This document shows positions 2,847 through 56,584 of a stretch of 64,000 nucleotides of DNA, piece by piece. Below the pieces are notes generated by a model that made no database searches, had not been told where the DNA came from, and was given only the letters and a program-made list of their open reading frames with translations. A program made the translations under genes and the position numbers. Source of the DNA: Streptomyces sp. HUAS ZL42 (GTDB lineage Bacteria > Actinomycetota > Actinomycetes > Streptomycetales > Streptomycetaceae); NCBI RefSeq assembly GCF_040782645.1, contig NZ_CP160403.1, positions 1,302,001-1,366,000 on the forward strand. Direction: 5' to 3'. Each line of letters opens with the position of its first letter. Within the stretch, counting starts at the first letter, position 1.

Positions 2847-4073
2847 GTGCCGAAGAGAGCCGCAGTGGTGGACGAGGAGACGGGGGGCCCGTTCAAGGCG
2901 TTGCCGACGGGCCTGCACGCCCGGCTCAGACCGTACTTCGCCGACATCACCGAGGAGGTCGTGGAGGCGATCCGCACGGAGATCCCCGAGTACGCGCGCC
3001 CGGCGGACGACACGTACATGCAGGGCGTGCACCGGGGCGTCGACCATGCGCTGCGTGGGTTTCTGGAGCGCATGGCCAAGCCGGACACCGACTGGGAGCC
3101 GGTGAAGGCGACGTACCGGCGCATCGGCCGCGGGGAGGCCGAGGAGGGGCGCAGCCTGGACTCGTTCCAGTCGGCACTGCGGCTCGGGGCGCGGGTGACC
3201 TGGCGCCGGGTGAACGCCCTGGTGGACGCCGACCTGCTGCCGCGCAGTGTGCTGGGCGCGTTCGGCGAGGCGCTGTTCGTGCACCTGGACGAGATGGCGG
3301 CCGCGACCACCGCGGGGTACACGGAGGCCCGCTTGCACGCGGCCGGCGAGTTACAGCAGCGGCGGACCCGGCTGATCGACCTGCTCACCGCCGATCCTCC
3401 GGCCTCGGCCGAGGCGATCGCGGATCTGGCGCACAGTGCGCGCTGGCCGGTGCCGCGCGGTGTGGCGATGGTCGCGATCGGCCACGGAGCGCCGACCGCC
3501 ACGCCGCCCATCGTGCCGCCGGAGTTCCTCGCCCGGTTCGACGTGCAACCCGCCGTGCTGGTCGTGCCCGACCCCGAGGGGCCGGGTCGGGCGCGGGCCG
3601 TCGCCGTGGCGTTGCAGGGGATGCGCGCGGCCATGGGTCCGACGGTCGCGCTGCAGGACGGCGCGCGGTCGCTGCGCTGGGCGGCGGAGGCACTCGACCT
3701 GATGAGGCGCGGCATCCTCCCGGACGCCGGACTGGTGCGCTGCCAGGACCACCTGTCCACGCTTCTGCTGCTGCGCGACGACGCGCTGACGGACGCGCTG
3801 GCCGCACGATGGCTGCGGCCGCTGGAGGGGGTGCGCCCGCCGCAGCGCGAGCGCCTCGCGGAGACCCTGCTGAGCTGGCTGGGCTCGGGCCGCAACGCGA
3901 GCGAGGTCGCGGAGCGGCTCGCCGTGCATCCGCAGACCGTGCGCTACCGGATGCGGCAGCTGGACGAGCTGTTCGGCGCCCAACTCCACGATCCGACCGC
4001 CCAGTTCGAGATGCAGCTCGCGCTGCGGGCACTGCGGCTGCGCGGGGGCGTCAGAGAGGGCGCCGCAGAGTGA
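2847..4073 (+). CDS. PucR/CdaR-like transcriptional regulator with C-terminal HTH
   Basis: A 408-residue protein. The N-terminal half is an all-helical sensor-like region (PYFADITEEVVEAIRTEIPE, then EYARPADDTYMQGV). The C-terminal end carries the PucR family HTH, seen as ASEVAERLAVHPQTVRYRMR followed by QLDEL. PucR-type proteins bind DNA through this terminal HTH and often control the adjacent catabolic genes. It lies 90 bp downstream of the amidohydrolase on the same strand and could regulate the permease-hydrolase pair, which is inference. No strong ribosome binding site precedes GTG 2847; GTG 2865 with AGAGAG upstream is an alternative. A clear paralogue with the same architecture lies at 47501-48775. 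The 3' end overlaps the convergent acetyltransferase by 23 bp. Confidence 0.85.
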   Translation: MPKRAAVVDEETGGPFKALPTGLHARLRPYFADITEEVVEAIRTEIPEYARPADDTYMQGVHRGVDHALRGFLERMAKPDTDWEPVKATYRRIGRGEAEEGRSLDSFQSALRLGARVTWRRVNALVDADLLPRSVLGAFGEALFVHLDEMAAATTAGYTEARLHAAGELQQRRTRLIDLLTADPPASAEAIADLAHSARWPVPRGVAMVAIGHGAPTATPPIVPPEFLARFDVQPAVLVVPDPEGPGRARAVAVALQGMRAAMGPTVALQDGARSLRWAAEALDLMRRGILPDAGLVRCQDHLSTLLLLRDDALTDALAARWLRPLEGVRPPQRERLAETLLSWLGSGRNASEVAERLAVHPQTVRYRMRQLDELFGAQLHDPTAQFEMQLALRALRLRGGVREGAAE

Positions 4074-18756: not shown

Positions 18757-19287
18757 ATGGCCCGTGTCACCTCACGCCTGCGCACCACCAAGCCGACCGG
18801 CGGTTCCAAACCGCCCCGCGGCGCCCGCCGGCTCCTCCCCTCCCTCGCCCGCCTGCTGGCGATGGTGTGCGCCTTCGCGTTCATGGTGGCGTTCGCCGTC
18901 GTACTGGCCCGGCTCACACTGGAGCCCTCTCCCGCGTCGGAGGCGCTGACCCACACCAACCTCCGCCCGGGCCGCTCGCTGCGGGCGTATCTGGACCAGC
19001 CCGCACTGCGCGACGCCGTCAAGCAGATCGGCGGGAACCTGCTGCTCGGCGTACCGTTCGGGATCCTGGTGCCCGTCGTGGCACCCCGGGCGCGGGGGAT
19101 CCTGCGCGTCGTGCTGCTGACCGCGACCGTGATGCTCATGGTGGAGTTCGCGCAGGGCGCCCTGGTCACCGGACGCGCCTTCGACATCGACGACGTCATC
19201 CTCAACACCACCGGAGCACTGGTCGGTTACCTGCTCCTGGGCCGCCGCCTCAGCCGTGCCGTGCACGCCCGCGAAAGCAAGAAGTAA
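18757..19287 (+). CDS. VanZ-like family membrane protein
   Basis: A 176-residue protein with a basic N-terminus and four membrane segments. The VanZ family pattern is visible in IGGNLLLGVPFGILVPVV and the acidic motif VMLMVEFAQGALVTGRAFDI followed by DDVILNTTGALVGYLL. VanZ relatives affect teicoplanin susceptibility in enterococci, but most actinobacterial members have no known role. GGAGG lies upstream of ATG 18757. The region 18525-18756 before it shows no further gene. Confidence 0.85.
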   Translation: MARVTSRLRTTKPTGGSKPPRGARRLLPSLARLLAMVCAFAFMVAFAVVLARLTLEPSPASEALTHTNLRPGRSLRAYLDQPALRDAVKQIGGNLLLGVPFGILVPVVAPRARGILRVVLLTATVMLMVEFAQGALVTGRAFDIDDVILNTTGALVGYLLLGRRLSRAVHARESKK

Positions 19288-19296
19288 CCGCAGGCC

Positions 19297-19539
19297 CTAG
19301 CGGCGGCGCGGCGTCCAGGTGAACTTGTCGCCGCCCACCCAGCGCACCACGTCGGGGTCGTCCAGGTCGTGGACCGTGATGCCCCACGCGGCGGCGGCCT
19401 CGAGGACGTCGGTGATGGTCTTCGCCTCACCGACCACTCTTCCGTCGATCTCCACGATGCGGAACGGCGGCCGGCCCGGTTGTACACCGAGCACCTTGAT
19501 CCGCGGGTGGGATATGTAGGGGCTCGCGATTTCGGTCAT
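19297..19539 (-). CDS. Conserved small actinobacterial protein, unknown function
   Basis: An 80-residue basic protein starting MTEIASPYISHPRIKVLGVQ. It contains RIVEIDGRVVGEAKTITDVL and ends KFTWTPRRR. It has no signal peptide or membrane segment and resembles a small domain with a beta-hairpin followed by one helix. I do not recognise a family. It converges on the VanZ-like gene nine bases away. Confidence 0.6.
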   Translation of the reverse strand: MTEIASPYISHPRIKVLGVQPGRPPFRIVEIDGRVVGEAKTITDVLEAAAAWGITVHDLDDPDVVRWVGGDKFTWTPRRR

Positions 19540-19679
19540 GTAATAGAGCGTAGAGCCGAACCGGCGGTAGCGAATCAGGTGAGCCGCCGCTCGAGCGGTC
19601 GGGCGGCCGCAGGAGCCGGTGCGCGGCCGCATCGGCTCAGGGCGCCGCCGGTCGCCGCGCCACAAGTGGGAGCCGGCCC

Positions 19680-20125
19680 GGGGACCCGTTCGGAGCATGC
19701 CGCCGTCGACGCGCCGGTGACGTACAAGGCGCCGGCACCGGCCGGCAAGGCGATCACGGCCGCGGCCTCGCGGGCGTCGCCGGGGCGGCCGAGCGGCACA
19801 CCGGGCCGTTCCCTCGTGTGCACGTCGACGGCCTCCTGCCCGGTCATCGGCGTGGCGATCTCGCCGGGCGCGACCGCGTTGACGGTGCTGCCGTACTCGG
19901 CCGGCTCCAGCGCCAAGCCCCGGGTGAGCAGGCCGAGCCCGCCCTTGGCCGCGCGGTACGGGGCGGCCAGGGGCGGCCGGTGCTCGTGGACGGAGGTGAC
20001 ATTGACCATCCGGCCGCCGTCGCCCTGCCGGATCACGTGCCGCGCCGCCCTCTGGCCGGACAGGAAGGTCGTGGCCCAGGCGGTGGCACGGCCGATACCG
20101 GAGTCCGTGCCGGTGATCGGGCCTC
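19680..20125 (-). pseudogene. Short-chain dehydrogenase pseudogene with internal deletion
   Basis: The minus strand reads the SDR cofactor motif TGTDSGIGRATA directly followed by FLSGQRAARHVIRQGDGGRM, then VNVTSVHEH, the catalytic pair in APYRAAKGGLGLLTRG (Tyr and Lys) and TVNAVAPGEIATPM. In an intact SDR the first and second parts are separated by about 80 residues, which are missing. Near 19720 the frame shifts, so that the normal C-terminal VDGGML is encoded in another frame. It cannot make a functional enzyme. Confidence 0.75.
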
Positions 20126-20237
20126 CTCGCGGACGCGGCGACAAGGCATCGCAGTGCCGGGGCGCGTACGGCGCAGACCGTCCCGTCCGTCGTGCGGCTC
20201 GCGTGGGCCTGGGGAACCCTGGAGCCAGGAGGTGGCG

Positions 20238-21251
20238 ATGGATCCCGTCGAGGCCCTGGACCGGATCGCCTTCCTGCTGGAGCGGTCCCTGGCTCCGACG
20301 TACCGCGTCCGCGCCTTCCGCACCGCGGCGAGGGTGCTGGTGGCACTGCCGCGGGGGGAGATCGAGGAGCGGGCGGCGGCCGGGACGCTGGAGTCCCTGA
20401 AGGGCGTCGGTCCGAAGACGGCTCAGGTGGTGCGTGAGGCGCTCGCCGGCCAGGTGCCCGGTTACCTGGAGCAGCTGGAGGGCGAGGCGGCGGCAGCCCC
20501 GCGGGTGCGCGGCGGCGAGCGGCTGCGGGCGCTGCTGCGCGGGGACTGCCATGTGCACTCCGACTGGTCGGACGGCGGCAGCCCCATCGAGGAGATGGGG
20601 CGGGCCGCGGCCGAGGTCGGGCACGAGTGGGCGGCGCTGACCGACCACTCCCCGCGGCTGACGGTGGCGCGCGGGCTCTCGGCCGAGCGGCTGCGTGAGC
20701 AACTGGACGTGGTGGCGCGGCTCAACGAGACGTGGGCGCCGTTCCGGCTGCTGACCGGCATCGAGTGCGACATCCTCGAGGACGGCTCCCTCGACCAGGA
20801 GCCGGAGTTGCTCGACCGGCTCGACGTCGTGGTGGTGTCGGTGCACTCCAAGCTGCGGATGGACGCCCGGGCGATGACCCGCCGGATGGTGACCGCCGTA
20901 CGCGATCCGCACGCCGACGTCCTCGGGCACTGCACGGGGCGGCTGGTCACCGGACGGGGGCGGCCGGAGTCGGAGTTCGACGCGGACGCGGTGTTCGCCG
21001 CGTGCGCCGAGTCGGGCACGGCCGTGGAGATCAACAGCCGCCCGGAGCGGCTCGACCCGCCGAGACGGCTGCTGCGCCGGGCCGTCGACGCAGGTGTGCT
21101 GTTCTCGATCGACACCGACGCGCACGCGCCGGGCCAGCTGGACTGGCAGATCAACGGCTGCGCGCGGGCCGAGGAATGCGAGGTGCCGCCCGAGCGGGTG
21201 GTCACGACATGGTCCGTGGAGAAGGTGCTGGACTGGACGCGCGGCGGGTGA
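20238..21251 (+). CDS. HhH plus PHP-domain phosphoesterase (PolX-like without polymerase)
   Basis: A 337-residue protein. The N-terminal 90 residues resemble the helix-hairpin-helix region of family X polymerases (LESLKGVGPKTAQVVREALA). The PHP domain begins with the metal motif GDCHVHSDWSDGG, continues with ALTDHSPRLTVARGL and GIECDIL, and ends with SIDTDAHAPGQL, so all the His/Asp metal ligands are visible. There is no nucleotidyltransferase core. It probably has a DNA-related phosphoesterase or 3'-5' exonuclease activity, by analogy with the PHP domain of PolX. AGGAGG precedes ATG 20238 by five bases. Confidence 0.85.
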   Translation: MDPVEALDRIAFLLERSLAPTYRVRAFRTAARVLVALPRGEIEERAAAGTLESLKGVGPKTAQVVREALAGQVPGYLEQLEGEAAAAPRVRGGERLRALLRGDCHVHSDWSDGGSPIEEMGRAAAEVGHEWAALTDHSPRLTVARGLSAERLREQLDVVARLNETWAPFRLLTGIECDILEDGSLDQEPELLDRLDVVVVSVHSKLRMDARAMTRRMVTAVRDPHADVLGHCTGRLVTGRGRPESEFDADAVFAACAESGTAVEINSRPERLDPPRRLLRRAVDAGVLFSIDTDAHAPGQLDWQINGCARAEECEVPPERVVTTWSVEKVLDWTRGG

Positions 21252-44813: not shown

Positions 44814-45676
44814 TCAGAGAGGACAGGTGCCCTCGAAGACGGCGGTATTGGGGTCGTTCGGGATCGGGCAGAGGAACTGGTCGTAGCGGGTGTCGTCGTC
44901 CACGAAGCGTTTGAGCCAGGCGATGCTGTACTTGGCGATCGTGGTGTTGGGGCTGGCGAAGGTGAAGTGATCGGCGCCCTTCAGCTCGACGAACGCCTTC
45001 TCGTGGGCTTTGGTCAGCGCATCGTAGGCGGGCCGGGCGAAGGTGGAGACGGGGGCGACGGTGTCGCCATCGGCCCCGAAGATCATGGTGGGCACGATGA
45101 TCTGCTCGCCGACGTTCGTGATGTCCCAGGGCGCCAGAGGGATCGCCGCCTTGAGCGCCGGATTGGCCGCCGCACTCTGCAGAGAGCCGCCACCACCCAT
45201 GGACCACCCCATCACGGCCAGCCTGTTGGGGTCGATCCTGCTTTTGACCGAGCTTTTCGTGGTCAGGTAGTTGAGCGCGGCGAGTTGTTGTCTGCTGCGG
45301 TCGGACGGGAAGTCCCACAACGCATTGGTGTCCAGGGTCATCACCACGAAGCCCTGAGAAGCCAGCCGTGGCCCGTACCAGGCGATCTGGGCCTGCCCGG
45401 AGACGAAGCCCGGCATGACGACGATGGCGCCGAAGGTGCCCTGGCTCGTGTCGGTCGGGTAGTAGATGGTGCCGTTGTTGAAACCAGGGCCACTTCCCGC
45501 CGGCACGGTGACGGAAGAGACGGCGAACGGGCCGGTGACGGCGGTGAGCTCGCCTCGGTGGGGGCCGGGCCACGCTCGTAGGGGTTACCGGAGGCCGCGT
45601 GGACAGGGGTGGCGAGCGCGATCGAGACCACGACCGCAAGGAACGCCATGAGCGCTCGGGGGCTGAGCAGTTTCAC
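44814..45676 (-). pseudogene. PETase/cutinase-like polyester hydrolase with 1-bp frameshift
   Basis: A secreted alpha/beta hydrolase of the Thermobifida cutinase/PETase type. The start is GTG 45676 (GAGAGGAC upstream), with a signal peptide and mature N-terminus ASGNPYERGPAPTEAS. At about 45554 one base is missing; in the other frame the expected sequence continues as TAVTGPFAVSSVT, then PAGSGPGFNNGTIYYP. Total length 863 bp equals 288 codons minus one base. The catalytic core is intact: Ser in GWSMGGGGSL (45203-45201), Asp in GADGDT (45065-45063), His in GADHFTF (44969-44967), and the C-terminal disulfide cysteines of FLCP and GTCPL. The intact remainder could only start without a signal peptide. 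Known family enzymes hydrolyse cutin, lipids and PET. Confidence 0.8.
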
Positions 45677-45698: not shown

Positions 45699-46361
45699 TC
45701 AGTTGGTGTAGACGGCCGGGGCACCGGCGACACTGCTGTCGACCACGGGGGCGTAGCTGGCCGTGAAGTAGCCGTTGCCCGCGCACAGCGCCGAGCCGGA
45801 GACCTTCCTGAAGGCCTGGTTGGTGAAGGTCAGGTCGCTGGCACCGTTGGAGCTCGTTCCGGAGAGGCTGGGCGCCTGGTAGACGCAGGTGGCGGAGCCC
45901 AGCAGGGTGGAGAGCACCACCGTGGTCTGGATGCTGCCACCCGGGGCCGGGGTCACCGTGACGGTACCGTCGGAGGCGGCGGAGGTGGCGTAGGGCAGGG
46001 CGTCGACGGTGATGCTGCGCACCGCGGTGACGCCGAAGATGTTGCTGGTGCAGCCGCTGAAGGTCTGGGAGGTCGCGGACTCGGTGGCGACGCCCGGGGC
46101 CGCGGGGTTCGACGTCACCGTGGCGGAGAGCGTCGATCCCGTGCAGGCGATGCGGGAGGTGCCGTCGCTGGTGGTGGCGAGGGTGGCTGTGGTGCCGCTC
46201 GCCAGCGAGGCGGTGAGCACGTCGCCGACGGAGACCGCGTTTCCGGCGGCGCTGCCGTAGGTGAGCACGGCGCTGTCCGCCGAGGCGGCAGCGGCTGGGA
46301 GAAGGGCCAGGGCCGTCAGGGCGGCCGTGGCGGCGAGGGCGGGGACTGTGAACCTGGGCAT
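45699..46361 (-). CDS. Secreted Thr/Ser-rich protein, unknown function
   Basis: A 220-residue protein with an N-terminal signal peptide MPRFTVPALAATAALTALAL and cleavage near ASADSA. The mature part is rich in Thr, Ser and Ala and forms repeated beta segments (SGTTATLATTSDGTSRIACT, GCTSNIFGVTAV), with six cysteines suited to extracellular disulfides. It is a typical actinobacterial 'Tat pathway signal' or secreted hypothetical protein. It lies 22 bp upstream of the polyester hydrolase on the same strand, so both are probably cotranscribed and secreted. Confidence 0.75.
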   Translation of the reverse strand: MPRFTVPALAATAALTALALLPAAAASADSAVLTYGSAAGNAVSVGDVLTASLASGTTATLATTSDGTSRIACTGSTLSATVTSNPAAPGVATESATSQTFSGCTSNIFGVTAVRSITVDALPYATSAASDGTVTVTPAPGGSIQTTVVLSTLLGSATCVYQAPSLSGTSSNGASDLTFTNQAFRKVSGSALCAGNGYFTASYAPVVDSSVAGAPAVYTN

Positions 46362-46666
46362 GCGGGGTCCTCTGCTGTGAGTGCAGGTGGCGAGTGCGGG
46401 TTCGCCGGCCCCGACTCGGGGTGAACGCGGTGACCCGGGCAAGGCGGTTCCCGGACTGCGGGAACGGCTGGTCCGATGTGCGCCCCTGGCCCGAGGCCAG
46501 GGGGGAGTGCTCACTTGCTGGCGGTCTTGCGCGTGCGTGACACTGTCGGCTCCGGCGGCTCTACGGCCGCAGGTCCGCGCAAGTTGAAAACCTGTGAGAG
46601 TTGTAAACCTGACGGGTATTCAAGTCAATACACTGCACATGAGTTCGCGACGAAAGAGGACGAGCC
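46362..46666. promoter_or_regulatory. Divergent control region with direct repeats TTGAAAACCTG/TTGTAAACCTG
   Basis: About 300 bp between divergent genes. Near the tetR side, TTGAAAACCTG (46584-46594) and TTGTAAACCTG (46601-46611) form an imperfect direct repeat 17 bp apart, in a local AT-rich patch that is unusual here. It is a candidate binding site for the adjacent TetR. No ORF or RNA gene recognised in the rest. Confidence 0.45.
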
Positions 46667-47500: not shown

Positions 47501-48775
47501 TCAGGTGCCCGTCGAGCGCAGGGGGGACGCCGGGGGCCGGACGTATTCCGGTGCCGGCCGGGAATGCTCACGGTCAGGGCCCGGACGGTCCCGTTCGCGG
47601 GGCGGGCCGAAGGCCACGTTCGCCCGCAGGGCCATCTCCAACTCGAAACGGGCCTCCGCGTCCCGCAGTGCCTCGCCGAACACCTTCTCCAGCTGCCTCA
47701 TCCGGTACCGCACGGTCTGCGGATGGACGTGCAGCCGCACGGCGGTCACCCCCACGCTGCTCTCGCTCTGTAACCAGGCCAGCAACGTCTCCGCCAGCCG
47801 GTCACGCTGCGGTGCGGGGATTCCGGCCAGCGGTGCCAGAGCCCGGGACGACAGTGCCCGGATCAGCGGCTCGTCCGCGTAGAGGACCAGCGTCGAGAGG
47901 TGGTCGGCGCACCGGAGCACGCCGTCACCTGGCAGGATTCCACGACGCATCAGCGACAGAGCCCGTGCCGCACAGCGCAGTGAGTCGACGATCTGGGACA
48001 GCGGGACGGTCGGCCCGACCGCGGTGGGCCGACCGCGCAGCACGGGTGCGAGGGCGTGCCTTCGTGGCACGCCGGGCCTGTCCGGGTCCGGGATGACCAG
48101 GCGTGCGGGGCGTGCGCTCATGTCGGCCAGCACTCCGGCGGGCAGCAGCAGTTCGTCGTCCTCCTGCTCGATTCCGTCCACAGCCATGACCGCGACACGC
48201 CTGGGCATGGCCCAGCGTGCGGTGCGGGCAAGTTCCTCGACCGCTTCGGCGGAGGCCGGAGGATCGGCGAACAGCAGGTCCATCAGGCGTTTGCGGCGGC
48301 GCTGCAACTCGCCGGTGCTGTGCAGCCGGGCCTCGCCGTGGCCTTCGGTGGCCGCCTGCATGATCTCGTGCATGTGGGTGAAGGCCGCCTCCGCCAGCGC
48401 GGCCACCTCGCCGGAGTCCAGCCCGAGTTCGTCGGCGGCCTTCGCCAGGCGCCGCCAGGCGGCCCGCCCGCCGAGCCGGAGCGCGGCCTGCAGCACTTCC
48501 AGGCCACGTCCTTCACCGGCTTCGCCCCGCCCGATCTCCTGGTAGGTGCGAGCGACACGCTCCTGATCCTGGTCGACGTCGGCGATGCGGTCCACGAAGA
48601 GCGTCAGAGCCCGTCTGACTCCGGCTCTGATGGTTCGCACATACGCGTCGTCGGCGGGCCGCGCGTATTCGGGTACCTGAAGCTGTACCTCGTGTTCGAT
48701 TTCCTTGGTGATCTCGTCGAGATGCGGACGCAGAAAGTCCGCCAATCGCTGGGGGACGACGGCGAAGGGATCCAT
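47501..48775 (-). CDS. PucR/CdaR-like regulator, paralogue of 2847-4073
   Basis: A 424-residue protein. The N-terminal region contains QVPEYARPADDAYVRTIRAG and RTYQEIGRGEAGEGRGLEVL, and the C-terminal HTH is VTAVRLHVHPQTVRYRMRQL. Architecture and many segments (EYARPADD.Y, IGRGEA.EGR, ARLH..GELQ.RR) are shared with the regulator at 2847-4073, so they are paralogues. It is followed by a Pro/Arg-rich tail of about 30 residues. It lies downstream, on the same strand, of the esterase-FAAL-PKS cluster with 130 bp between, and could regulate it. Confidence 0.85.
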   Translation of the reverse strand: MDPFAVVPQRLADFLRPHLDEITKEIEHEVQLQVPEYARPADDAYVRTIRAGVRRALTLFVDRIADVDQDQERVARTYQEIGRGEAGEGRGLEVLQAALRLGGRAAWRRLAKAADELGLDSGEVAALAEAAFTHMHEIMQAATEGHGEARLHSTGELQRRRKRLMDLLFADPPASAEAVEELARTARWAMPRRVAVMAVDGIEQEDDELLLPAGVLADMSARPARLVIPDPDRPGVPRRHALAPVLRGRPTAVGPTVPLSQIVDSLRCAARALSLMRRGILPGDGVLRCADHLSTLVLYADEPLIRALSSRALAPLAGIPAPQRDRLAETLLAWLQSESSVGVTAVRLHVHPQTVRYRMRQLEKVFGEALRDAEARFELEMALRANVAFGPPRERDRPGPDREHSRPAPEYVRPPASPLRSTGT

Positions 48776-48905: not shown

Positions 48906-49907
48906 TCAGGCCGGCACACCGAGCGCCGCGGCGAGTACCGGCCAGGAGGTGACGAACTCCCGCTTCCAGTCGCTCCATTGGTGACCGCCGCCCTGATAGA
49001 GGTGCTGGGTGACCGGGACACCCAGGCGGCCGAGTTCGGTGACGAAGCTCTGGGTGGAGGGAGCCACGAGGCTCTCCAGGACTCCGGGCAGCAGGGCGTC
49101 GACACCGCCGCTGATGAGCTGCGCGATCGCGAGGATGATGGCGAGAGGGCTGCTGAGGCTGCCGCTTCCCGCGGAGACGTAGAGCGCGGTGCCCCGCAGG
49201 GCGTTCGCTCGGGCCAGGGGGTTGTAGTCCTGCCACGTGGCCGAGTCGCGGGTCGGATCGCCCCACAGCGACAGAGGGTCGAGGCTCTCTCGCGCCACGA
49301 TCGCCTGGATGATCGTCGGCATCCTCGTCGCCCTGGTGTCGGGAATACCGCTGTACGACGCGGCGGCCACGAACATTCCCGGATGGCGGGCGGCGTGCGC
49401 CATGGCCCCGTACCCTCCCGTCGACACACCGGCGACGGCCCGGACACGGGAGGCCCGGTAACCGGCGCTCAGCACCGCCGGAACCTCCTGGAGCTGGAAG
49501 GTCTCGTAGTCGAGGCCGGTCCGCCACCGCGTGGGGATGGCGGTGGGACCTCCGTCCGGCATGGCGACGATGAGGTCCCGGTTCGCCGTGACCGCCTCGA
49601 TGTCGGTCTCCCTGGTCCACGAGGTGTAGTCGTCGTGCGCGCCGTGCAGGAGGTAGAGCACCGGCCAGGTCCGGCCGGGTCGGTCGGCGTAGGAGGTCGG
49701 CAGGATGATCCGCACGGGCGCGGTGCGGCCCAGCGCGGCGGAGGGAACGCCGAGGTCGTAGGTGCGGGGGCCCAGTCGGCTGACGGTGACATCGGCGGCC
49801 GAAGCCACCCGGGCCCCGGCCAGCACCCCCGCGACTCCGAGGGCGGCGGCCTTGGCGACGGTACGGCGGGACGGACCGCGGTGGTGAGCGGACGGGCGGT
49901 CGGACAT
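48906..49907 (-). CDS. Secreted esterase of the antigen-85/esterase D superfamily
   Basis: A 333-residue protein with a Tat-type signal (PSRRTVAKAAALGVAGVLAG) ending at VASAA. The alpha/beta hydrolase shows LYLLHGAHDDYTSW, MPDGGP and the nucleophile elbow GVSTGGYGAMA with Ser162. The C-terminal QGGGHQWSDWKREF carries the likely catalytic His. Ag85 (FbpA) enzymes of this family transfer mycolates to trehalose in mycobacteria; other members are simple esterases. It lies just downstream of FadD32-like and Pks13-like genes in the same direction. Confidence 0.82.
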   Translation of the reverse strand: MSDRPSAHHRGPSRRTVAKAAALGVAGVLAGARVASAADVTVSRLGPRTYDLGVPSAALGRTAPVRIILPTSYADRPGRTWPVLYLLHGAHDDYTSWTRETDIEAVTANRDLIVAMPDGGPTAIPTRWRTGLDYETFQLQEVPAVLSAGYRASRVRAVAGVSTGGYGAMAHAARHPGMFVAAASYSGIPDTRATRMPTIIQAIVARESLDPLSLWGDPTRDSATWQDYNPLARANALRGTALYVSAGSGSLSSPLAIILAIAQLISGGVDALLPGVLESLVAPSTQSFVTELGRLGVPVTQHLYQGGGHQWSDWKREFVTSWPVLAAALGVPA

Positions 49908-49971
49908 GGCAGGCGGCTCCTTGCGGGGGTCGGGAGGAGACGAGGACGGAAGTTCCGGTGCCGGCCGATCC

Positions 49972-51107
49972 TCAGAGCGGCTCCTGGCCGAGTACTCGGT
50001 TCAAGTGATCGGCGATGGTCTGGGCATGCGGCGGGTCGAGCAGCGAAGGGGGACGTCGACGACCTCGCCGCCCGGGTGGAGGAGGGGGGCCGGGAGGGGA
50101 CGGCCCGCGGTGTGCAGGGCGGCCAGTTGGCCGCGGAAGGTGAGGGCGGGGTCGTCGTCTCTGCGCAGTGTGGGCAGGTGGAGGGCGTCGGGCAGGTTCT
50201 CGGCGAGCGGGTGCAGGAGCAGCGGGTGCGGGGAGATCTCGATGAAGGCGGTGTGCCCGTCCGCCGCCGCGGCGGCCAGCGCGCCGGCGAACCGGACCGG
50301 AGAGCGGAGATTGGCCGCCCAGTACGCGGCGTCGAAGTCGCAGGCACCGGTGGGGTCGTCGTGGACGGTCGAGTAGACGCGTACGGCGGTGTCGGAGCGG
50401 CCCCGGACGTCGCCGAGACGGGCGACCAGTTCGGGCATCAGCGGCTCGACCTGGGGCGAGTGCCCGGCGCCCTGGACGAGCATGGTGCGGGCGGTGCGCC
50501 CCACGGCTGTGAGGTGTTCGACGAGCCGGGTCACGGCCGGTGCCTCACCGGTCACGGTCTTCTGCCCGGGTGAGGTGTGCACGGCGAGGTGGACACCCGG
50601 GAACCGCGGTGCGATGTCGTCGAGTTCGTCGTCGGTGGGGTCCACCACCGCCATCGCCCCGCCACGCAGGGTGGCGAGCAGCCGGGACCGTACGGCGATG
50701 ACGCGGGCACCGTCGGCGGGATCGAGCGCCCCTGCTACGACCGCTGCCGCGACCTCTCCCATCGAGTGCCCGACGACCGCGGCAGGTTCGACGCCGTAGA
50801 ACGCAGTCACCAGGGCCACGCACGCCTCCGGGCAGCCGGCAGCCGACTCCGACCACGGCGATCGGTTCGTGGGCGAATGCCCCGCGGGGGACGTGCACGG
50901 CCTGCGGGCCTGGTGCCGCGCCGCCCAGGAGGGTGACCAGCGCGTCGACGGTAGGCGCTTCCCATAGCAGGGTCGTGGGCAGCTCCCGGCCGACCGCGTG
51001 GGCCAGTTCTCCGGTGATGGCAACCGCGTCGCGCGAGGAAAGATGAAAGCGATCCGTTCGACGACCAACCGCCTCAGACCGATCGGTCCGTCCGCGCTCG
51101 CGCTCAT
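49972..51107 (-). pseudogene. Collapsed type I PKS: ACP, first residues of KS, then AT
   Basis: A polyketide synthase relic. The start MSASADGPIGLRRLVVERIA begins an ACP, and after a frameshift near 51044 the sequence continues as SSRDAVAITGELAHAVGREL in a second frame. It then reaches the KS N-terminus EPIAVVGVGCRLPGG at about 50850. There it jumps directly into an AT domain (CVALVTAFYGVEPAAVVGHS, MGEVAAAVVAG), so the whole KS core (over 1.2 kb) and KS-AT linker are deleted. The AT runs to VVDVP; the last residues LLDPPHAQTIADHLNRVLGQ are in another frame, ending 49972-49974. The ATG overlaps the FAAL stop by ATGA. Confidence 0.82.
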
Positions 51108-52933
51108 GACGTGCCCCGTTCCGGATGCTCGTAGGAACCGTCGAGATAGCGGGCGCGGGTCAGGGCGCGGGAGATCTTGCCGCTGGAGGTGCGCGGCACG
51201 CTGCCGGGCCGGACGAGCAGCACGTCGGCCAGCCGCAGGCCGTGCCGGGCGGAGACGGCCGCGCGCACGGCGGCAGCGACCTCTTGGGGATTGCGGGCCG
51301 GGGCGGGCAGGCCACGGGCGTGTTCGGCGACGATCACCGCGGACTCCGCGGCGATCCCGGCACGGGTCCCGGTGTCGACAGCGGGGTCCCGGCCTGCGGG
51401 GAGTTGTCCGGCTGGGACGGCGAAGGCCGCGAGACGGTCGGGGCGTATCGCCCGGTGCGCCGCTTGCGCGGTGCCTTCGACGTCCTGCGGATAGTGGTTG
51501 CGCCCGTCCACGATGATCAGGTCCTTGAGGCGGCCGGTGACCAGGAGCTGTCCGTCGAGCACCGTGCCGAGATCACCTGTCCGCAGCCAGTGGCCGGGTT
51601 CGTGTGCCAAGCGGGCCTGGAAGGTCTCACGGGTCTGCGGGCCGCGATCCTGGTAGCCGCGCCCGATGTTGGGTCCCTGGACCCAGATCTCGCCCACCAC
51701 CCCCGGCGGCAGGACGGCGGTGGTGACGGGGTCGACGACGCGAATCGTCTGCCCGACGGGTTCGCCGCAGGCGGCGAGCAGGACCGCGGCCGGATCATCC
51801 GGGGCGACGGGAACGGCTCTGCCGGCCGCCAGCGCCTCGCGGTCCAGGGAGTACCGGCGCAACGGCTGTCCGGGCCGATGGGCACTGACGAAGACGGTGG
51901 CTTCGGCGAGCCCGTAGGACGGGCAGTGCACCTCTGCCGGCAGTCCCTGGACTGCGAAGGCCGCGTGGAAGCGGTCGGCGGTTTCGGGCCGCACGGGTTC
52001 GCTGCCGTTGACGAGCACGGCGACCCGGTCCAGCCGGAGGCCGACCTTGTCCTCGTCGGAGATGACGGTCGCGCAGTAGTCGTACGCGAAGTTCGGCGCG
52101 GCGCTGAGAGCGTTCGGGAACTCGGACAGCAGGCGCAGCCAGCGTGCGGGCCGCCGCAGGAAGGCCAGCGGGTCCATGACGACGGACCGCAGGCCACGGA
52201 CGACGGGGGCGGCGACACTGAGTACCAGCCCCATGTCGTGGTAGAGCGGTAGCCAGCCGACCATCGTGGGTGGCCGCTCGTCGGCGCCGTACGCGGTGAG
52301 CGCCTGGCGGGCGTTGGCGACGACGTTCGCGTGCGAGATCTCGACGGCGGTCGGGGTGCGGGTGGAGCCGGAGCTGTACTGCAGGTAGGCGGTCGCCTGC
52401 CCGTCCGGAGCAGGGACACGTGGACCATCGGCCTGGTCGTCGGGGACGAGGTCGGTGACGATCAGCCGGGGCCGCAGACCATGTGCGGCGAGGAAGGCGC
52501 TCACGGTGTCGGCATCGGCGCTGGTGGTGAGCACGGCGGCGGGACGGGAATCGGCGAGGATCCCGGCCAGGCGGTCGGCGTGACCCGGCAGGTCGGGGGT
52601 GAACAGGGGGACGGCGACGGCGCCGGAGGTGAGCGCTGCGAGGAAACCGACGACGTATTCGAGGCCCTGGCCGCAGAGCAGGGCGACGCGTTCGCCGGGA
52701 GCCACGGTTTCCCTCAGCCGGGAGGCGACCGCGCGCGTGCGTATATCGACGCGGTGCCAGGTGAGCGTGCGGTGCCTGGCCCGGAGGCCGGGCGCCGGGT
52801 ACTCCGCGAAGGTGAACGCGGGACGTCCAGGGGTGTGACGGGCCCAGTGGGCAAGGTGAGCGGAGAGACTGCTCGGGTCGTCCGGCGCTGTGCCTGATGC
52901 GTCGGAGGCGTGCGGCAAGGCGTGCGAGGGCAT
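51104..52933 (-). CDS. Long-chain fatty acyl-AMP ligase (FadD32-like FAAL)
   Basis: A 609-residue adenylating enzyme, apparently intact. It follows FadD32/FAAL segments: LQYSSGSTRTPTAVEISHAN, VGWLPLYHDMGLVLSVAAPV, CPSYGLAEATVFVSAHRPG, and GRLKDLIIVDGRNHYPQDVE near the C-terminal hinge; the terminal RTSSGKISRALTRARYLDGS contains the catalytic Lys. FAALs activate fatty acids as acyl-AMP and load them on the N-terminal ACP of a PKS. ATG 52933 has GAGGAG seven bases upstream. It is coupled to the PKS by ATGA, as fadD32 precedes pks13, but the PKS is now broken. Confidence 0.9.
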   Translation of the reverse strand: MPSHALPHASDASGTAPDDPSSLSAHLAHWARHTPGRPAFTFAEYPAPGLRARHRTLTWHRVDIRTRAVASRLRETVAPGERVALLCGQGLEYVVGFLAALTSGAVAVPLFTPDLPGHADRLAGILADSRPAAVLTTSADADTVSAFLAAHGLRPRLIVTDLVPDDQADGPRVPAPDGQATAYLQYSSGSTRTPTAVEISHANVVANARQALTAYGADERPPTMVGWLPLYHDMGLVLSVAAPVVRGLRSVVMDPLAFLRRPARWLRLLSEFPNALSAAPNFAYDYCATVISDEDKVGLRLDRVAVLVNGSEPVRPETADRFHAAFAVQGLPAEVHCPSYGLAEATVFVSAHRPGQPLRRYSLDREALAAGRAVPVAPDDPAAVLLAACGEPVGQTIRVVDPVTTAVLPPGVVGEIWVQGPNIGRGYQDRGPQTRETFQARLAHEPGHWLRTGDLGTVLDGQLLVTGRLKDLIIVDGRNHYPQDVEGTAQAAHRAIRPDRLAAFAVPAGQLPAGRDPAVDTGTRAGIAAESAVIVAEHARGLPAPARNPQEVAAAVRAAVSARHGLRLADVLLVRPGSVPRTSSGKISRALTRARYLDGSYEHPERGTS

Positions 52934-52961
52934 GAGAGTACTCCTCACGTCACTGGTCGTC

Positions 52962-53261
52962 TCACGGACCGGGGACTGCGATCACGGCTTCGCTGCAGCA
53001 CTCACAGCGGAATGTTGCCGTGCCGCCGCTGCCGTTCCGGCCGCACACCAGCGCGCCGGTCTCGACGAAGGAATCCGGATCCAGCAACCGAGCCAGGCGT
53101 TCGCGAGCGGTGCGGCGGCCGCGCGCGGCCTGCCAGGCCACGGCCTGCGCGGATCCGCCGGCCAGGGCCCGTCGCTGTCGAGCAGCGAGATCCGTGAGCC
53201 GTTGCGCCGTCGTACCCGCAGCAGGAGCGGGCGATTCCCGGGTCTCCGCGATCGAGGTCAC
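52962..53261 (-). pseudogene. Truncated acyl-CoA carboxylase beta subunit (AccD)
   Basis: A 99-codon frame with a strong AAGGAGG before GTG 53261. Residues 20-70 (QRLTDLAARQRRALAGGSAQ, ARERLARLLDPDSFVETGAL) are the N-terminus of biotin-dependent carboxyltransferases of the AccD/PccB group. The remaining ~450 residues are missing; the last ~28 residues (CGRNGSGGTATFRCECC...) are not family-like. It lies 28 bp upstream of the FAAL gene. Carboxylases of this class supply the carboxylated extender for Pks13 in mycobacteria. Confidence 0.75.
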
Positions 53262-53791
53262 AGCCACCTCCTTCGGCGCTTGCGAGCATGGCAGTTGCGC
53301 AAGCGGCGGTCCTCTTTCTCGCACCGAATGTGAAGTTGTTGAGCGATCTGCGGCGCGCGTTCATTGACGGACTACAAGCCGAGACGACCGAACGTCGGCC
53401 GACTCATCGCTGTGCCGACACCCAGCGGGCATTCGGGGAGGGGGCGGACTGGAGGTTGCGGGCCGTCGGCGGGATCGGTCCCCTTTGATTCGCCCGGTTG
53501 GCGGGGATTCTCCGGTGAGCTGACGGCTCATCTTGTTGGCTTGCTCTTCATGGTCCGGCTTGGTCACGTTCGGGTTCGGGCGGAAGTTCCTGAACGCCCG
53601 GCGCACCCTCGAAGCAACATGATCAAGATCTACAGCTGGGGTACTGAGCCTCGATCCACTGGACAGGGGGTGATGCGGCGCATCCGCTCCTGTCAAGACA
53701 CGAGTATTCGAGACATGACGTGCGGCCCTTCGATCATGCCTAGTGAATCCCAACCGGTTCCGCTCAATGAGACAGAAAGAGGTGAGCGAAG
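53262..53791. other. Long intergenic region of lower GC
   Basis: About 530 bp, with AT-richer patches than the rest of the window (CAACATGATCAAGATC). It separates the minus-strand accD relic from the plus-strand dioxygenase-like gene and must hold both promoters. No protein-like frame, tRNA or inverted repeat was recognised. Confidence 0.4.
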
Positions 53792-54952
53792 ATGACCTGC
53801 GAAGGGTTCTCCTTGGCCCGCTCGATCACGGAAGAGGGGAGGCGGACGGGAAAGCATTTCCTGTCGGAACGTTCACTGGTCGAGTTGAGCGACATTCGAC
53901 GTCGGCACACCGCACGGCGTCCGTTTCTCGAAGCATTCCTCGACGGCATGCTGGACAAATACGAGGGGCGTTATTGGAACCGAAGCTACCTTTCGCTGCC
54001 GCTCCTGGAGCTCCTCTTGGACGGCCGGTATTCCGCGCTGAGCCCCGACCGGATGTCCACCCTGCTCATGTCCGACGTCGTGCGCTTCGAGATACAGACG
54101 GCAGGCGGATCTCACGAGTCGCCTTCCCTGGGTCGTCCGGATCCGGTGACGCTGCGCAAGCGGCTGCGCCATGCCCTGCGGTTCGTGGTCGACGGCCTCG
54201 GCGGACCGGATGCCGATGACCTGCCGTCCCGGGTGGCCGACATGCCTCAGCCCGGCTTGGAAGGGCTGGTCGACCTGTTGCCCGGGCCACCGGCGACGGA
54301 TGCCGGCCGGTGGTTCGGCGTCACCGTCCAGCCCGTGTACGTGCTGCATGACGAATACTTCTTCATCCGCATCCTTCAGACCCACGAAATGCTCTTCACG
54401 GCGATCGCCACGCACATGAAGGGAGCGATCGGAGCCCTGCGTGCCGGACAGCTGGAATCGAGTGTGGCGTGGATAAATCACGCGACGGAGATTTTCGAGC
54501 GCGCGGCGGCGCTGTTCCGGATCGTCGCCACGATGCGAGCCGGGCAATTCTCCATATTCCGGCAGTTCACCCAAGGGGCCAGCGCCATTCAGTCCGAGCA
54601 GTACAAGAGGTTCGAGATCCTGTGCGGTGTTCCACCTGCCCCGCGTCTGCACTCAGCAGCCTTCACGAGTGTTCCCGCCGTTCGGGCCGAGGCGGAAGAC
54701 ACCGCCCATGACACCCTCACTCGGGCATATCTCGACCTCCGCGAGGCGGGCGTATTCAGCCAGGCGGAGTGGAATCTGCTCGACGCGGCACTCAGCAGGC
54801 TGGAAGGCAGGCACCAGCGCTGGAAATCCACCCATCGCAGCCTCGCCGTGCGCATGCTGGGCGATGCACACGGATCCGGTTACACCGATGGCGTTCCGTA
54901 CCTGACGAAATGCCTGGAGAACCGGCTGTTCTGGCAACTGCGCGGGCGATGA
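53792..54952 (+). CDS. Divergent tryptophan 2,3-dioxygenase-superfamily heme protein
   Basis: A 386-residue protein. The C-terminal 200 residues follow TDO: YFFIRILQTHEMLFTAIATH, then FRQFTQGASAIQSEQYKRFE with Arg257, and HRSLAVRMLGDAHGSGYTDG with the proximal heme ligand candidate His348, ending GVPYLTKCLEN. Compared with TDO the distal His of HQxxELW is replaced (LQTHEML: Leu, with a His two residues later). An extra ~185-residue N-terminal region is unknown. TDO relatives include oxygenases of indole-derived natural products. GAGGTGA lies upstream of ATG 53792. Its base composition is lower in GC than its neighbours. Confidence 0.75.
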   Translation: MTCEGFSLARSITEEGRRTGKHFLSERSLVELSDIRRRHTARRPFLEAFLDGMLDKYEGRYWNRSYLSLPLLELLLDGRYSALSPDRMSTLLMSDVVRFEIQTAGGSHESPSLGRPDPVTLRKRLRHALRFVVDGLGGPDADDLPSRVADMPQPGLEGLVDLLPGPPATDAGRWFGVTVQPVYVLHDEYFFIRILQTHEMLFTAIATHMKGAIGALRAGQLESSVAWINHATEIFERAAALFRIVATMRAGQFSIFRQFTQGASAIQSEQYKRFEILCGVPPAPRLHSAAFTSVPAVRAEAEDTAHDTLTRAYLDLREAGVFSQAEWNLLDAALSRLEGRHQRWKSTHRSLAVRMLGDAHGSGYTDGVPYLTKCLENRLFWQLRGR

Positions 54953-55184: not shown

Positions 55185-56486
55185 TCAGACCTCGTCGCGC
55201 GTCAGCGCCAGCAGCCGGTCCAGGACCCTGGCACCACCGGCCCGCACGCCGTCGTGCTCGAACTCGTCGGTGACCCAGGTGCGCAGGCTGCGGACGGTCC
55301 GGGCGGTCCGCAGGGAGTGGTCGGTGTCGACGTACATGTCGTCGTGGTAGATCGCCGCGGCGACCGGGACCTCGTTGGCGGCGAGGCGCGCGGGGTCGTA
55401 CAGCGGCCGCCAGTCGGTGCGGGCGGCGAGCAGTTCGGCGGTCTCGCGCAGCGGGCGCAGCGCCGGGTCGCAGTCGAACATCCAGGGGTGGACGGTCTCG
55501 CCCGTGAACAGCAGCGGTCCGTCGCCCGTGAGGGACTTGGCCGCGTCGAACTGCGGGAACTCGGCCCGCACCCGCTCGGCGGCCCAGTCGGTGGGTCGGG
55601 CGTCCTGGCCGTAGATCGCCTCGTGGACCAGGGCGTACAAGGGGTGGCTCGCGTACGACAGCAGGCCCTGCACGCCCTCCTGGAAGGCGTCGGACAGCTC
55701 CGTGCCGCGCGGGGTGCGGACGAAGGCGTCCTCCAGGAGGTAGTGCAGGCGGTGGCTGCCGTCGCCGGCGCCGAGGACGATGCCGAGGGACTGGAATGCC
55801 TCGACGGTGAGCCGGTAACCGTTCGGCAGGACGACCTCGTTGGTCAGCAGATGGTCGGCGATGCGGCGGGCGCGTTCGACGTCCTGCGGGTAGCGGGCGT
55901 AGTGCGCGGTGACCTTGCGTTCGATGCGCGGGTAGGCGGCGCGGTAGACGTCGTCGGCGTGGGCGTCGAGGGAGGGCAGGCCGCCGGCGATGACGGCGGC
56001 GGTGAGGCCCTCGGGGGCCGTGGAGAGGTAGTTCACCGTGCAGAAGCCGCCGAAGCTCTGGCCGAGCACCGTCCAGCGGGCGCCGCCGGTGACCCGGGCG
56101 CGGATCGCCTCGCAGTCGCGCACGATCGAGTCGGCACGGAAGTGCGTGAGATAGCCGGCCTGCTCGGCGGGGCCGCCGCGCAGCGGAAGCGTCTGGCGGT
56201 TCGCGGGTGTGGAGTGGCCGGTGCCGCGCTGGTCCAGGAGGAGGACGCGGTACTCCTTCAGGGCGCGGCCGAGCCACGCCTGCCTGCCGACGAAGCGGTT
56301 CGCCCCGAAACCGGGGCCGCCCTGCAGATAGACCAGCCACGGCAGGTTCTGGTGCGCCTTGTCGCTCGCGACGACCTCGCGGGCGTAGAGCTCGATCGTC
56401 TCCCCGGCCGGGTCGTCGTGATCGAGGGGCACGGTGAAGTGGCGGTCGGTGAGGACGACTCCGGGCTGGCGGTAGCTGACGGTCAA
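55185..56486 (-). CDS. Proline iminopeptidase-like alpha/beta hydrolase
   Basis: A 433-residue protein started at TTG 56486 (GGGGAG five bases upstream; a GTG at 56531 is an alternative). The family start SYRQPGVVLTDRHFTVPLDH is followed by the oxyanion motif VYLQGGPGFGANRF, LLDQRGTGHSTP and the nucleophile elbow VLGQSFGGFCTVNY; a C-terminal His lies in IYHDDMYVDTDHS. This S33 family removes N-terminal proline from peptides. It probably serves peptide salvage; there is no signal peptide. Confidence 0.87.
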   Translation of the reverse strand: MTVSYRQPGVVLTDRHFTVPLDHDDPAGETIELYAREVVASDKAHQNLPWLVYLQGGPGFGANRFVGRQAWLGRALKEYRVLLLDQRGTGHSTPANRQTLPLRGGPAEQAGYLTHFRADSIVRDCEAIRARVTGGARWTVLGQSFGGFCTVNYLSTAPEGLTAAVIAGGLPSLDAHADDVYRAAYPRIERKVTAHYARYPQDVERARRIADHLLTNEVVLPNGYRLTVEAFQSLGIVLGAGDGSHRLHYLLEDAFVRTPRGTELSDAFQEGVQGLLSYASHPLYALVHEAIYGQDARPTDWAAERVRAEFPQFDAAKSLTGDGPLLFTGETVHPWMFDCDPALRPLRETAELLAARTDWRPLYDPARLAANEVPVAAAIYHDDMYVDTDHSLRTARTVRSLRTWVTDEFEHDGVRAGGARVLDRLLALTRDEV

Positions 56487-56584
56487 CAGGTCTCCCCGTA
56501 CGGACGGACTCGGTCCGTCCCAGTTCAGCACACCCGCGGCCGCCCTAGGCGACCGGGGATCATGAACGGCTGCTGAACGGCGGA

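Follow-up and report, generated by a model that had tools for sequence, protein, structure and literature searches.

A recently decayed copy of a putative mycolate-type condensation operon in Streptomyces sp. HUAS ZL42 and its intact relatives

We analysed a 64,000-nucleotide stretch of the Streptomyces sp. HUAS ZL42 chromosome (contig NZ_CP160403.1, positions 1,302,001 to 1,366,000; hereafter the window), which carries the remains of a gene set resembling the mycolic acid condensation locus of Mycobacteriales. Four genes lie on the minus strand in the order given by a preliminary description of the sequence: a stub of accD, encoding an acyl-CoA carboxylase carboxyltransferase subunit (53002..53267), a gene for a FadD32-like fatty acyl-AMP ligase (FAAL; 51104..52948), the relic of a Pks13-like polyketide synthase (PKS) gene (about 49987..51107) and a gene for an esterase resembling the mycoloyltransferases of the antigen 85 (Ag85) type (48906..49907). 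The FAAL had been called intact, and rightly so: its open reading frame (ORF) spans 614 amino acids (ATG at about 52931 as an alternative start), matches PF00501 (E 2e-60) and contains the segments NHYPQD, DMGL and ARYLDGS. The esterase gene (PF00756, E 1e-29) keeps an intact Ser-Glu-His triad and HxW motif. Beyond these four genes, the module includes a fifth conserved gene on the same strand, encoding a PucR/CdaR-type transcriptional regulator (47501..48775; PF13556, E 6e-19 in its ORF), which is 75% identical to the regulator of an intact orthologous locus in S. xylophagus (L041); furthermore, an intact second copy of the module lies elsewhere in the same genome. Of the module, only the FAAL, esterase and regulator frames are still open in this copy.

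Alignment by blastn with L041 and with a second intact orthologue, L042, located four deletions. Aligned blocks share 73-87% nucleotide identity with L041, to which the following lengths and junctions refer. In accD, about 73 N-terminal codons are kept, then about 1.35 kb of the gene's interior is missing (junction 53031-53047), and only the last codons remain, out of frame. The stub (53267-53016) is 74% identical to residues 1-84 of the L041 protein by tblastn; its homologous start lies at about 53267, with 53261 being the next GTG, and its ORF scores 35 bits against TIGR01117. The PKS relic (PF00698, E 5e-52; breakpoints placed by comparison with L041 and L042) is read as one ORF that keeps the synthase frame only for acyltransferase (AT) residues of about 705-955. 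A deletion of about 55 bp in the first acyl carrier protein (ACP) domain (junction 51039-51049) causes a frameshift, so that this ACP and the start of the ketosynthase (KS) are out of frame; the first KS residues are followed by a deletion of about 1.74 kb that runs into the AT (junction 50799-50805). The C-terminal two thirds of the AT remain in frame with the GHSMG and GAGH motifs, and a fourth deletion of 1.14 kb, from the end of the AT to the end of the thioesterase (TE; junction 50046/50047), took out the second ACP along with the greater part of the TE, leaving about 60 terminal bases. The ACP-KS-AT-ACP-TE organization is therefore absent from the window, where KS, both ACPs and TE are gone or frameshifted. 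Since AccD is lost as well, this copy cannot condense fatty acids.

If these deletions were assembly errors, the locus would be intact. The decay rests on a single assembly, and the substitution pattern gives no hint of relaxed selection: the ratio of nonsynonymous to synonymous changes (pN/pS) unique to the window is 0.25 for the FAAL, 0.37 for the esterase, 0.25 for the regulator and 0.31 (21 nonsynonymous, 26 synonymous) for the dead AT piece, compared to a spread of 0.09-0.65 in two intact relatives, all from small counts and without a significance test. However, the genome is assembled in one contig, the neighboring frames are intact, and the four separate deletions differ in length, one shifts the frame, and some junctions show short microhomology by eye. 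An artefact is thus very unlikely. Given that the pN/pS values of the window lie within the range of intact relatives, we rejected a long-standing pseudogene under drift, and the decay looks recent from the sequence.

The preliminary description proposed looking for a complete version of the locus in other Streptomyces, with a carboxylase and a Pks13-like ACP-KS-AT-ACP-TE synthase, and such orthologues were indeed found. A search with the FAAL yielded 421 relatives, and the locus counts given here use the best 80 of these 421. Five of them (L040-L044) share 74-79% FAAL identity with the window and were designated type A, while the rest share 59-67%. AccD is encoded upstream of the FAAL in 79 of the 80 loci, the exception (L095) being at a contig end, and the synthase directly follows the FAAL in 78, both exceptions (L044 and L119) again being contig ends. 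Downstream genes were counted in the 65 loci whose sequence extends 9.5 kb or more beyond the FAAL: all 65 carry the esterase and a homologue of the regulator, 64 carry a PF01083 cutinase (assigned by Pfam on one representative and by similarity in the other loci) and 59 a secreted hydrolase-like protein. Apart from the module genes, the cutinase and this hydrolase-like protein, no gene matched in a majority of the 80 loci. The hydrolase-like protein, as represented in L059 (S. viridochromogenes DSM 40736; 18883-20604, minus strand), looks secreted, is 573 amino acids long and contains a GGHSLGG motif; it matches no Pfam family.

An intact type B paralogue was found in the window's own genome (L120, G000:C1:1071542-1081237), spanning 9.7 kb from AccD to the regulator. 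As in the window and the 78 loci, its FAAL and synthase genes are adjacent; the synthase is ACP-KS-AT-ACP-TE by Pfam, and a cutinase gene lies behind the module. Six type A carriers were fetched, and types A and B occur together in the five that entered the type B check: the own genome, S. xylophagus (L041/L052), MBT65 (L040/L069), SID12488 (L042/L070) and MBT53 (G183); the sixth carrier is S. graminilatus. Redundancy with the type B copy may have allowed the type A copy to decay, and the FAAL, esterase and regulator of the window could still serve the intact copy. A third FAAL of this genome (40% identity; L121, G000:C1:9085000-9104000) lies beside a modular PKS, and both this FAAL and the neighboring KS-ATs fall outside the Pks13-like group. 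The window also contains, far from the locus, a gene for a second PucR-type regulator (2889-4031, plus strand) that is 50% identical to the module regulator.

Matches to the FAAL at E <=1e-120 were found in at least 53 of 295 Streptomyces genomes, a lower bound as four candidates were scored per genome. At 60% identity or more, counted here as type A or B, the FAAL is present in 39 of the 295. A class-wide count of the Pks13 family (25/296) scored single stretches at E 1e-300 and missed Streptomyces loci; it is therefore no distribution count.

The intact synthases of L041, L059 and L120 have the organization ACP-KS-AT-ACP-TE according to Pfam. Among 79 aligned sequences, the catalytic KS cysteine is present in 78 (one gap) and the AT serine in 75 (four gaps), and the serine motifs of the second ACP and TE were seen in 4/4 type A and B sequences inspected. 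The best-scoring NCBIfam model is NF040607, Pks13 (1197 bits for L041, 1147 bits for L059), and the best relative in PDB is Pks13 (864 bits vs 662 for MAS, the next family). Specificity motifs point the same way: the AT motif is GAGH in all 74 readable Streptomyces type A and B sequences (5 gaps) and GASH or GAGH in 10/10 Pks13 sequences, while 11 outgroup sequences have HAFH or other motifs, none beginning with Gly. The first-ACP motif, xGMSSR in 4/4 type A and B sequences, resembles the FGLSSR found by pattern search in 3/6 Pks13 sequences. One database protein, from Streptomyces sp. yr375, is named polyketide synthase 13, and others are named phthiocerol synthase PpsA.

In a KS-AT tree with 10 outgroup PKSs (12 of its 56 sequences dropped), Pks13, the Streptomyces synthases of types A to D (types C and D being described below) and those of three further groups, f17, f18 and f46, form one clade supported at 100/99. 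The clade was recovered with an SH-aLRT (Shimodaira-Hasegawa-like approximate likelihood ratio test) value of 100 in a quick tree with 17 outgroups, for which 15 near-duplicate sequences were dropped and the outgroups changed. Because it has lost its KS, the window relic is outside these trees. Apart from L153, which came from the Pks13 model, the f17, f18 and f46 loci were found through their esterase and not through a PKS, so that their placement involves no circularity. Within the clade, the position of Pks13 is weakly supported (85/65 vs the rest with 10 outgroups; beside L153 at 85 in the quick tree), and the Streptomyces synthases branch off separately, next to Pks13 and not within it.

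The FAAL gives a different picture. It scores 557 bits against NF038339 (FadD32), and its best PDB matches are 5icr/5d6j (455 bits), which are labelled acyl-CoA synthase and which we take to be FadD32, followed by FadD32-labelled chains (437 and 428) and FadD23 (369). In the FAAL tree (60 sequences prepared; L043, L090, L116, L216, L230 and L234 excluded as short after trimming), the Streptomyces types group with L153 and L187 in a clade supported at 94/95, just under the program's mark, whereas FadD32 and three other f17/f18 FAALs stay outside, with the base unresolved and several long branches. A grouping of FAAL and ACP away from FadD32 and Pks13 had been named beforehand as evidence against kinship with the mycolate system; half of that outcome was observed, in that the FAAL sits in a mainly Streptomyces clade and not specifically with FadD32, and the KS-AT region shares a clade with Pks13.

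These trees also bear on how the locus reached Streptomyces. The preliminary description offered a transferred and subsequently lost system as one option, and the same gene classes and FAAL-synthase adjacency would fit a recent horizontal transfer from Mycobacteriales. However, the FAAL and the synthase form branches separate from those of mycolate makers, two old paralogues (A and B) exist within Streptomyces, where the locus is widespread, and the gene order differs, with AccD first and the esterase downstream. We therefore rejected recent transfer on both trees and consider it highly improbable.

AccD shows a possible link to long acyl chains. Two pocket sites of such carboxyltransferases are tied to acyl chain length, and Phe at the first is universal in subunits known to carboxylate substrates of four carbons or fewer (PMC5187497). 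Position 160 is never Phe in 80 Streptomyces type A and B sequences (75 Val, 5 Ala), and the Asp422 position is Ala in all 80. AccD4 of Mycobacteriales likewise has Ala at the latter (6/6) and Gly (5) or Ser (1) at the former, and five f18/f46 AccDs have Gly and Ala at the two sites. In a control set of 15 carboxyltransferases from two genomes, a non-Phe residue combined with Ala occurred only in the own type B AccD (Val/Ala) and in AccD4 (Gly/Ala); the own PccB is Phe/Asp, four others are Phe/Ile and one is Phe/Cys, and the distant members vary: Phe/Tyr and Thr/Tyr occur twice each and Phe/Ala once, while two more show a gap at the first site, with Met in one and Ala in the other at the second. 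By its two AccD4-like sites, the intact AccD may be a long-chain acyl-CoA carboxyltransferase; the window has only the stub. MccB/SamR0483, a Streptomyces medium-chain acyl-CoA carboxylase subunit, is also PccB-like, carries Ala at the Asp site and lacks Phe at its 161 site, but it feeds extender units to a modular PKS (PMC5187497), unlike the AccD fixed in the FAAL-Pks13-like operon.

The esterase has a twin-arginine-like N terminus (read by eye). By sequence, the best PDB match of the L041 protein is 6sx4 (Protein PS1; C. glutamicum PS1/mycoloyltransferase A; E 3.9e-37). When the AlphaFold2 (AF2) model of the window protein (mean predicted local distance difference test, pLDDT, 87.6) was submitted to Foldseek, the first 27 matches all belonged to the mycoloyltransferase/Ag85 family, MPT51 included. 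The Ser-Glu-His triad and the Trp that follows it are conserved in the window and in 69/69 type A and B sequences, and the triad in 8/8 type C and 6/6 Mycobacteriales esterases; in the f17, f18 and f46 esterases, the acid is Glu in 9/12 and Asp in 3/12. Its predicted alpha/beta-hydrolase fold, triad and closest structures place the protein in the mycoloyltransferase/Ag85 family.

Taken together, gene content, domain architecture, catalytic and specificity residues, phylogeny and linkage suggest that the locus is probably a recently decayed type A copy of a Streptomyces mycolate-type condensation operon, AccD-FAAL-Pks13-like synthase-mycoloyltransferase-like esterase-PucR-type regulator. On most of the sequence evidence, the intact locus would work like the FadD32-Pks13 system. 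A long-chain acyl-CoA would be carboxylated by AccD together with biotin subunits encoded outside the locus, giving an alkylmalonyl unit that the AT would transfer to the second ACP. A free fatty acid, the second substrate, would be activated by the FAAL and placed on the first ACP, and the KS would join both chains by Claisen condensation. Finally, the TE would transfer the resulting alpha-alkyl beta-keto acid to an acceptor, to be handed on by the exported esterase; beta-reduction would be carried out by an enzyme encoded elsewhere. Every reaction in this scheme is inferred, as are the chain lengths, the acceptor and the product, and we do not claim mycolic acid. In Streptomyces, the lipstatin pathway also joins two fatty acids by Claisen condensation into an alpha-alkyl beta-hydroxy acid, using KASIII-type condensing enzymes instead of a Pks13-like synthase.

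Several observations weigh against this interpretation. The synthases of L041 and L059 miss the curated cut-off of the Pks13 model (2100), as does the FAAL that of the FadD32 model (975), and the FAAL tree shows no specific sister relationship to FadD32; given the cut-offs and the FAAL grouping, we did not file these proteins as FadD32 and Pks13 proper. AccD is overall closest to PccB (699 bits vs 518 for 9t97 chain D4a, read as AccD4), and L291, a distant carboxyltransferase (33%) encoded in the window's genome, shares the Ala at site 422 and shows a gap at the other position. The AccD and AT residue rules are correlations, and the outgroup PKSs of the KS-AT tree came from four genomes only. 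No reductase was noticed in the locus, no search of the rest of the genome having been made, and the same holds for the mycolate reductase CmrA and the transporter MmpL3 across the loci. Streptomyces is not known to make mycolates.

Some of these points would also fit a FAAL-PKS pathway with a different product, such as a small alpha-branched compound (keto lipid, ketone or pyrone) that is secreted as a signal or antibiotic and is no envelope lipid, with the esterase being a simple hydrolase or a self-protection enzyme. The missed cut-offs and the separate FAAL branch agree with such a product, as do the absence of a ketoreductase (KR) motif from the type A to C synthases inspected, the linked PucR-type regulator (65/65 loci with enough flank) and a patchy distribution (39/295 at the A/B level) that resembles specialised metabolism. 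Conversely, the linked esterase has the fold, sequence and Ser-Glu-His triad of mycoloyltransferases, and nothing beyond the module, the cutinase and the hydrolase-like protein recurs in most of the 80 loci. The proposal is compatible with Pks13-like enzymology, and we regard it as possible but less likely than not.

The linked cutinase deserves separate consideration. In S. scabiei 87.22, the cutinase at the end of type B locus L090 is the suberinase Sub1: Cys 31, 103, 178 and 185, Ser114, Asp182, His195 and both mature ends agree with the published protein, which is specifically induced by suberin (PMC7104285). Its gene lies at L090:18457-19095. Among the 295 Streptomyces genomes (the FAAL and cutinase lists being taken as the same draw), 39 carry a type A or B FAAL, 39 carry the cutinase and 37 carry both (Fisher p 3e-42, kinship ignored), with the two genes within 12 kb of each other in 36/37 and on separate contigs in the remaining one. 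The FAAL occurs without the cutinase in G001 and G139, both fragmented assemblies (G001 is 79% complete), and the cutinase without a type A or B FAAL in G099 and G260, the latter having a type D FAAL.

This linkage raises the alternative of a plant-polyester module, in which the cutinase or suberinase would free long acids from cutin or suberin, the FAAL would capture them and the synthase, controlled by the PucR-type regulator, would condense them to a lipid for storage or for use as a surfactant. FAALs use free acids, and besides the suberin-induced Sub1 and the FAAL-cutinase association, a cutinase-like esterase of another family (PF12740) follows the type A locus in both the window and L042. 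In the window, it is encoded at 44814..45506 (minus strand; PET hydrolase/cutinase-like esterase, E 3e-96; 78% identical to L042, its sole match among the DNA compared) and may correspond to the PF01083 cutinase found in type B loci, an uncertain equivalence. However, the type A locus L041 has no cutinase, and none was matched in the fetched L184-L217 stretches, whose flanks are limited, except in the type B locus L204. Moreover, the mycolate locus of Mycobacteriales also keeps a cutinase, located between the Fbp-type gene and FadD32 in 4/6 fetched loci (no match in L147 and L151), in keeping with the position of the cutinase Rv3802c within the Rv3799c-Rv3804c cluster (PMC2625445). The plant-polyester explanation is compatible with the enzymology proposed above, and we consider it rather unlikely. 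The available text on Sub1 treats it as a plant-polymer enzyme and mentions no lipid operon (PMC7104285); its linkage to the module gives it a possible second role.

Compared to the Mycobacteriales locus (fbp - cutinase Rv3802c - fadD32 - pks13 - accD4), the intact Streptomyces loci have in common a FAAL encoded beside an ACP-KS-AT-ACP-TE synthase, a linked carboxyltransferase with two matching pocket sites, a mycoloyltransferase-like esterase, a cutinase (type B loci), the AT and first-ACP motifs and a single KS-AT clade. They differ in gene order, in an AccD closer to PccB, in the PucR-type regulator fixed in the module and in synthase length (about 1310-1420 vs 1714-1919 amino acids for the Mycobacteriales ORFs); the window copy is, in addition, broken. 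Titles and abstract openings among the literature matches listed contain no description of a Pks13-like operon in Streptomyces. We read it as an apparently undescribed, widespread mycolate-type condensation locus outside Mycobacteriales.

More distant relatives extend the family. Among the fetched loci (L198-L203 and L205-L217), Streptomyces FAALs matching at 50-56% define types C and D. The eight type C loci encode a FAAL, an ACP-KS-AT-ACP-TE synthase and an esterase, with no AccD seen, and the 11 type D loci have a 2-kb insert ahead of the second ACP. Five KR-bearing synthases (L185, L194, L186, L202 and L208) were analysed by Pfam: two type D synthases and the f17 synthase L194 combine a KR with a dehydratase (DH) of which only the N-terminal half is present, while L185 (f18) and L186 (f46) contain both DH halves and a KR. 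A simple pattern search found the KR motif YAAAN in 15, and the DH motif HxxxGxxxxP in 2, of the 19 readable among 24 type D, f17, f18 and f46 sequences. The type D, f17, f18 and f46 loci share with the module described here a FAAL and an ACP-KS-AT...ACP-TE core of the same clade, and differ by a KR domain and remnants of a DH, both lying between the AT and the second ACP, so that a beta-hydroxy product is plausible. The esterase search had returned 30 loci, from which 14 wider stretches were fetched, chosen partly for PKS or AccD in the flanks; a Pks13-like synthase lies in 12 of the 14 stretches around f17, f18 and f46 esterases (none in L190 and L191), and five f18/f46 loci encode an AccD at 60-66%. 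An esterase was near the type D synthase in 3/11 stretches. Family f4 was assigned to Mycobacteriales on the basis of gene content and of the scores against Pks13.

In Pks13 itself, a domain without catalytic activity that resembles an N-terminal DH half has been reported (PMC11649247), and an ancestor with KR and DH would explain both this dead half-DH and the half-DH and KR of its relatives. We tentatively propose, with somewhat more doubt than confidence, that Streptomyces and other non-Mycobacteriales actinobacteria make mycolate-like lipids ('streptomycolates') with a full set for condensation, transfer and hydrolysis, Sub1 included. If so, mycolate condensation would predate the mycomembrane, Pks13 would represent one branch within a broader actinobacterial family, and its dead half-DH would be left over from a form with a KR. 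Mycolic acids have been described as exclusive to Corynebacteriales (PMC5310785), and the origin of the mycomembrane has been called a mystery (PMC6194230). The Streptomyces set of Pks13-clade synthase, AccD, FAAL, esterase and cutinase would make this origin testable in genetically tractable soil bacteria, and predicts an undescribed lipid class. The window is a dead copy whose value is that of a pointer to intact ones, which, with one of them in the same genome, suggest that bacteria not known for mycolic acids may make a related lipid.

Further along the minus strand, between the regulator and the PF12740 esterase, the window encodes a secreted-looking protein without Pfam family (45699..46514) that is 72% identical to L042, its sole match among the DNA compared; its membership in the module is uncertain. 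On the other side of the locus, a plus-strand gene (53792-54952) encodes a tryptophan 2,3-dioxygenase-like protein with a partial domain match only (PF03301, E 2e-16), adjoined by a proline-iminopeptidase-like gene (55185-56531, minus strand).

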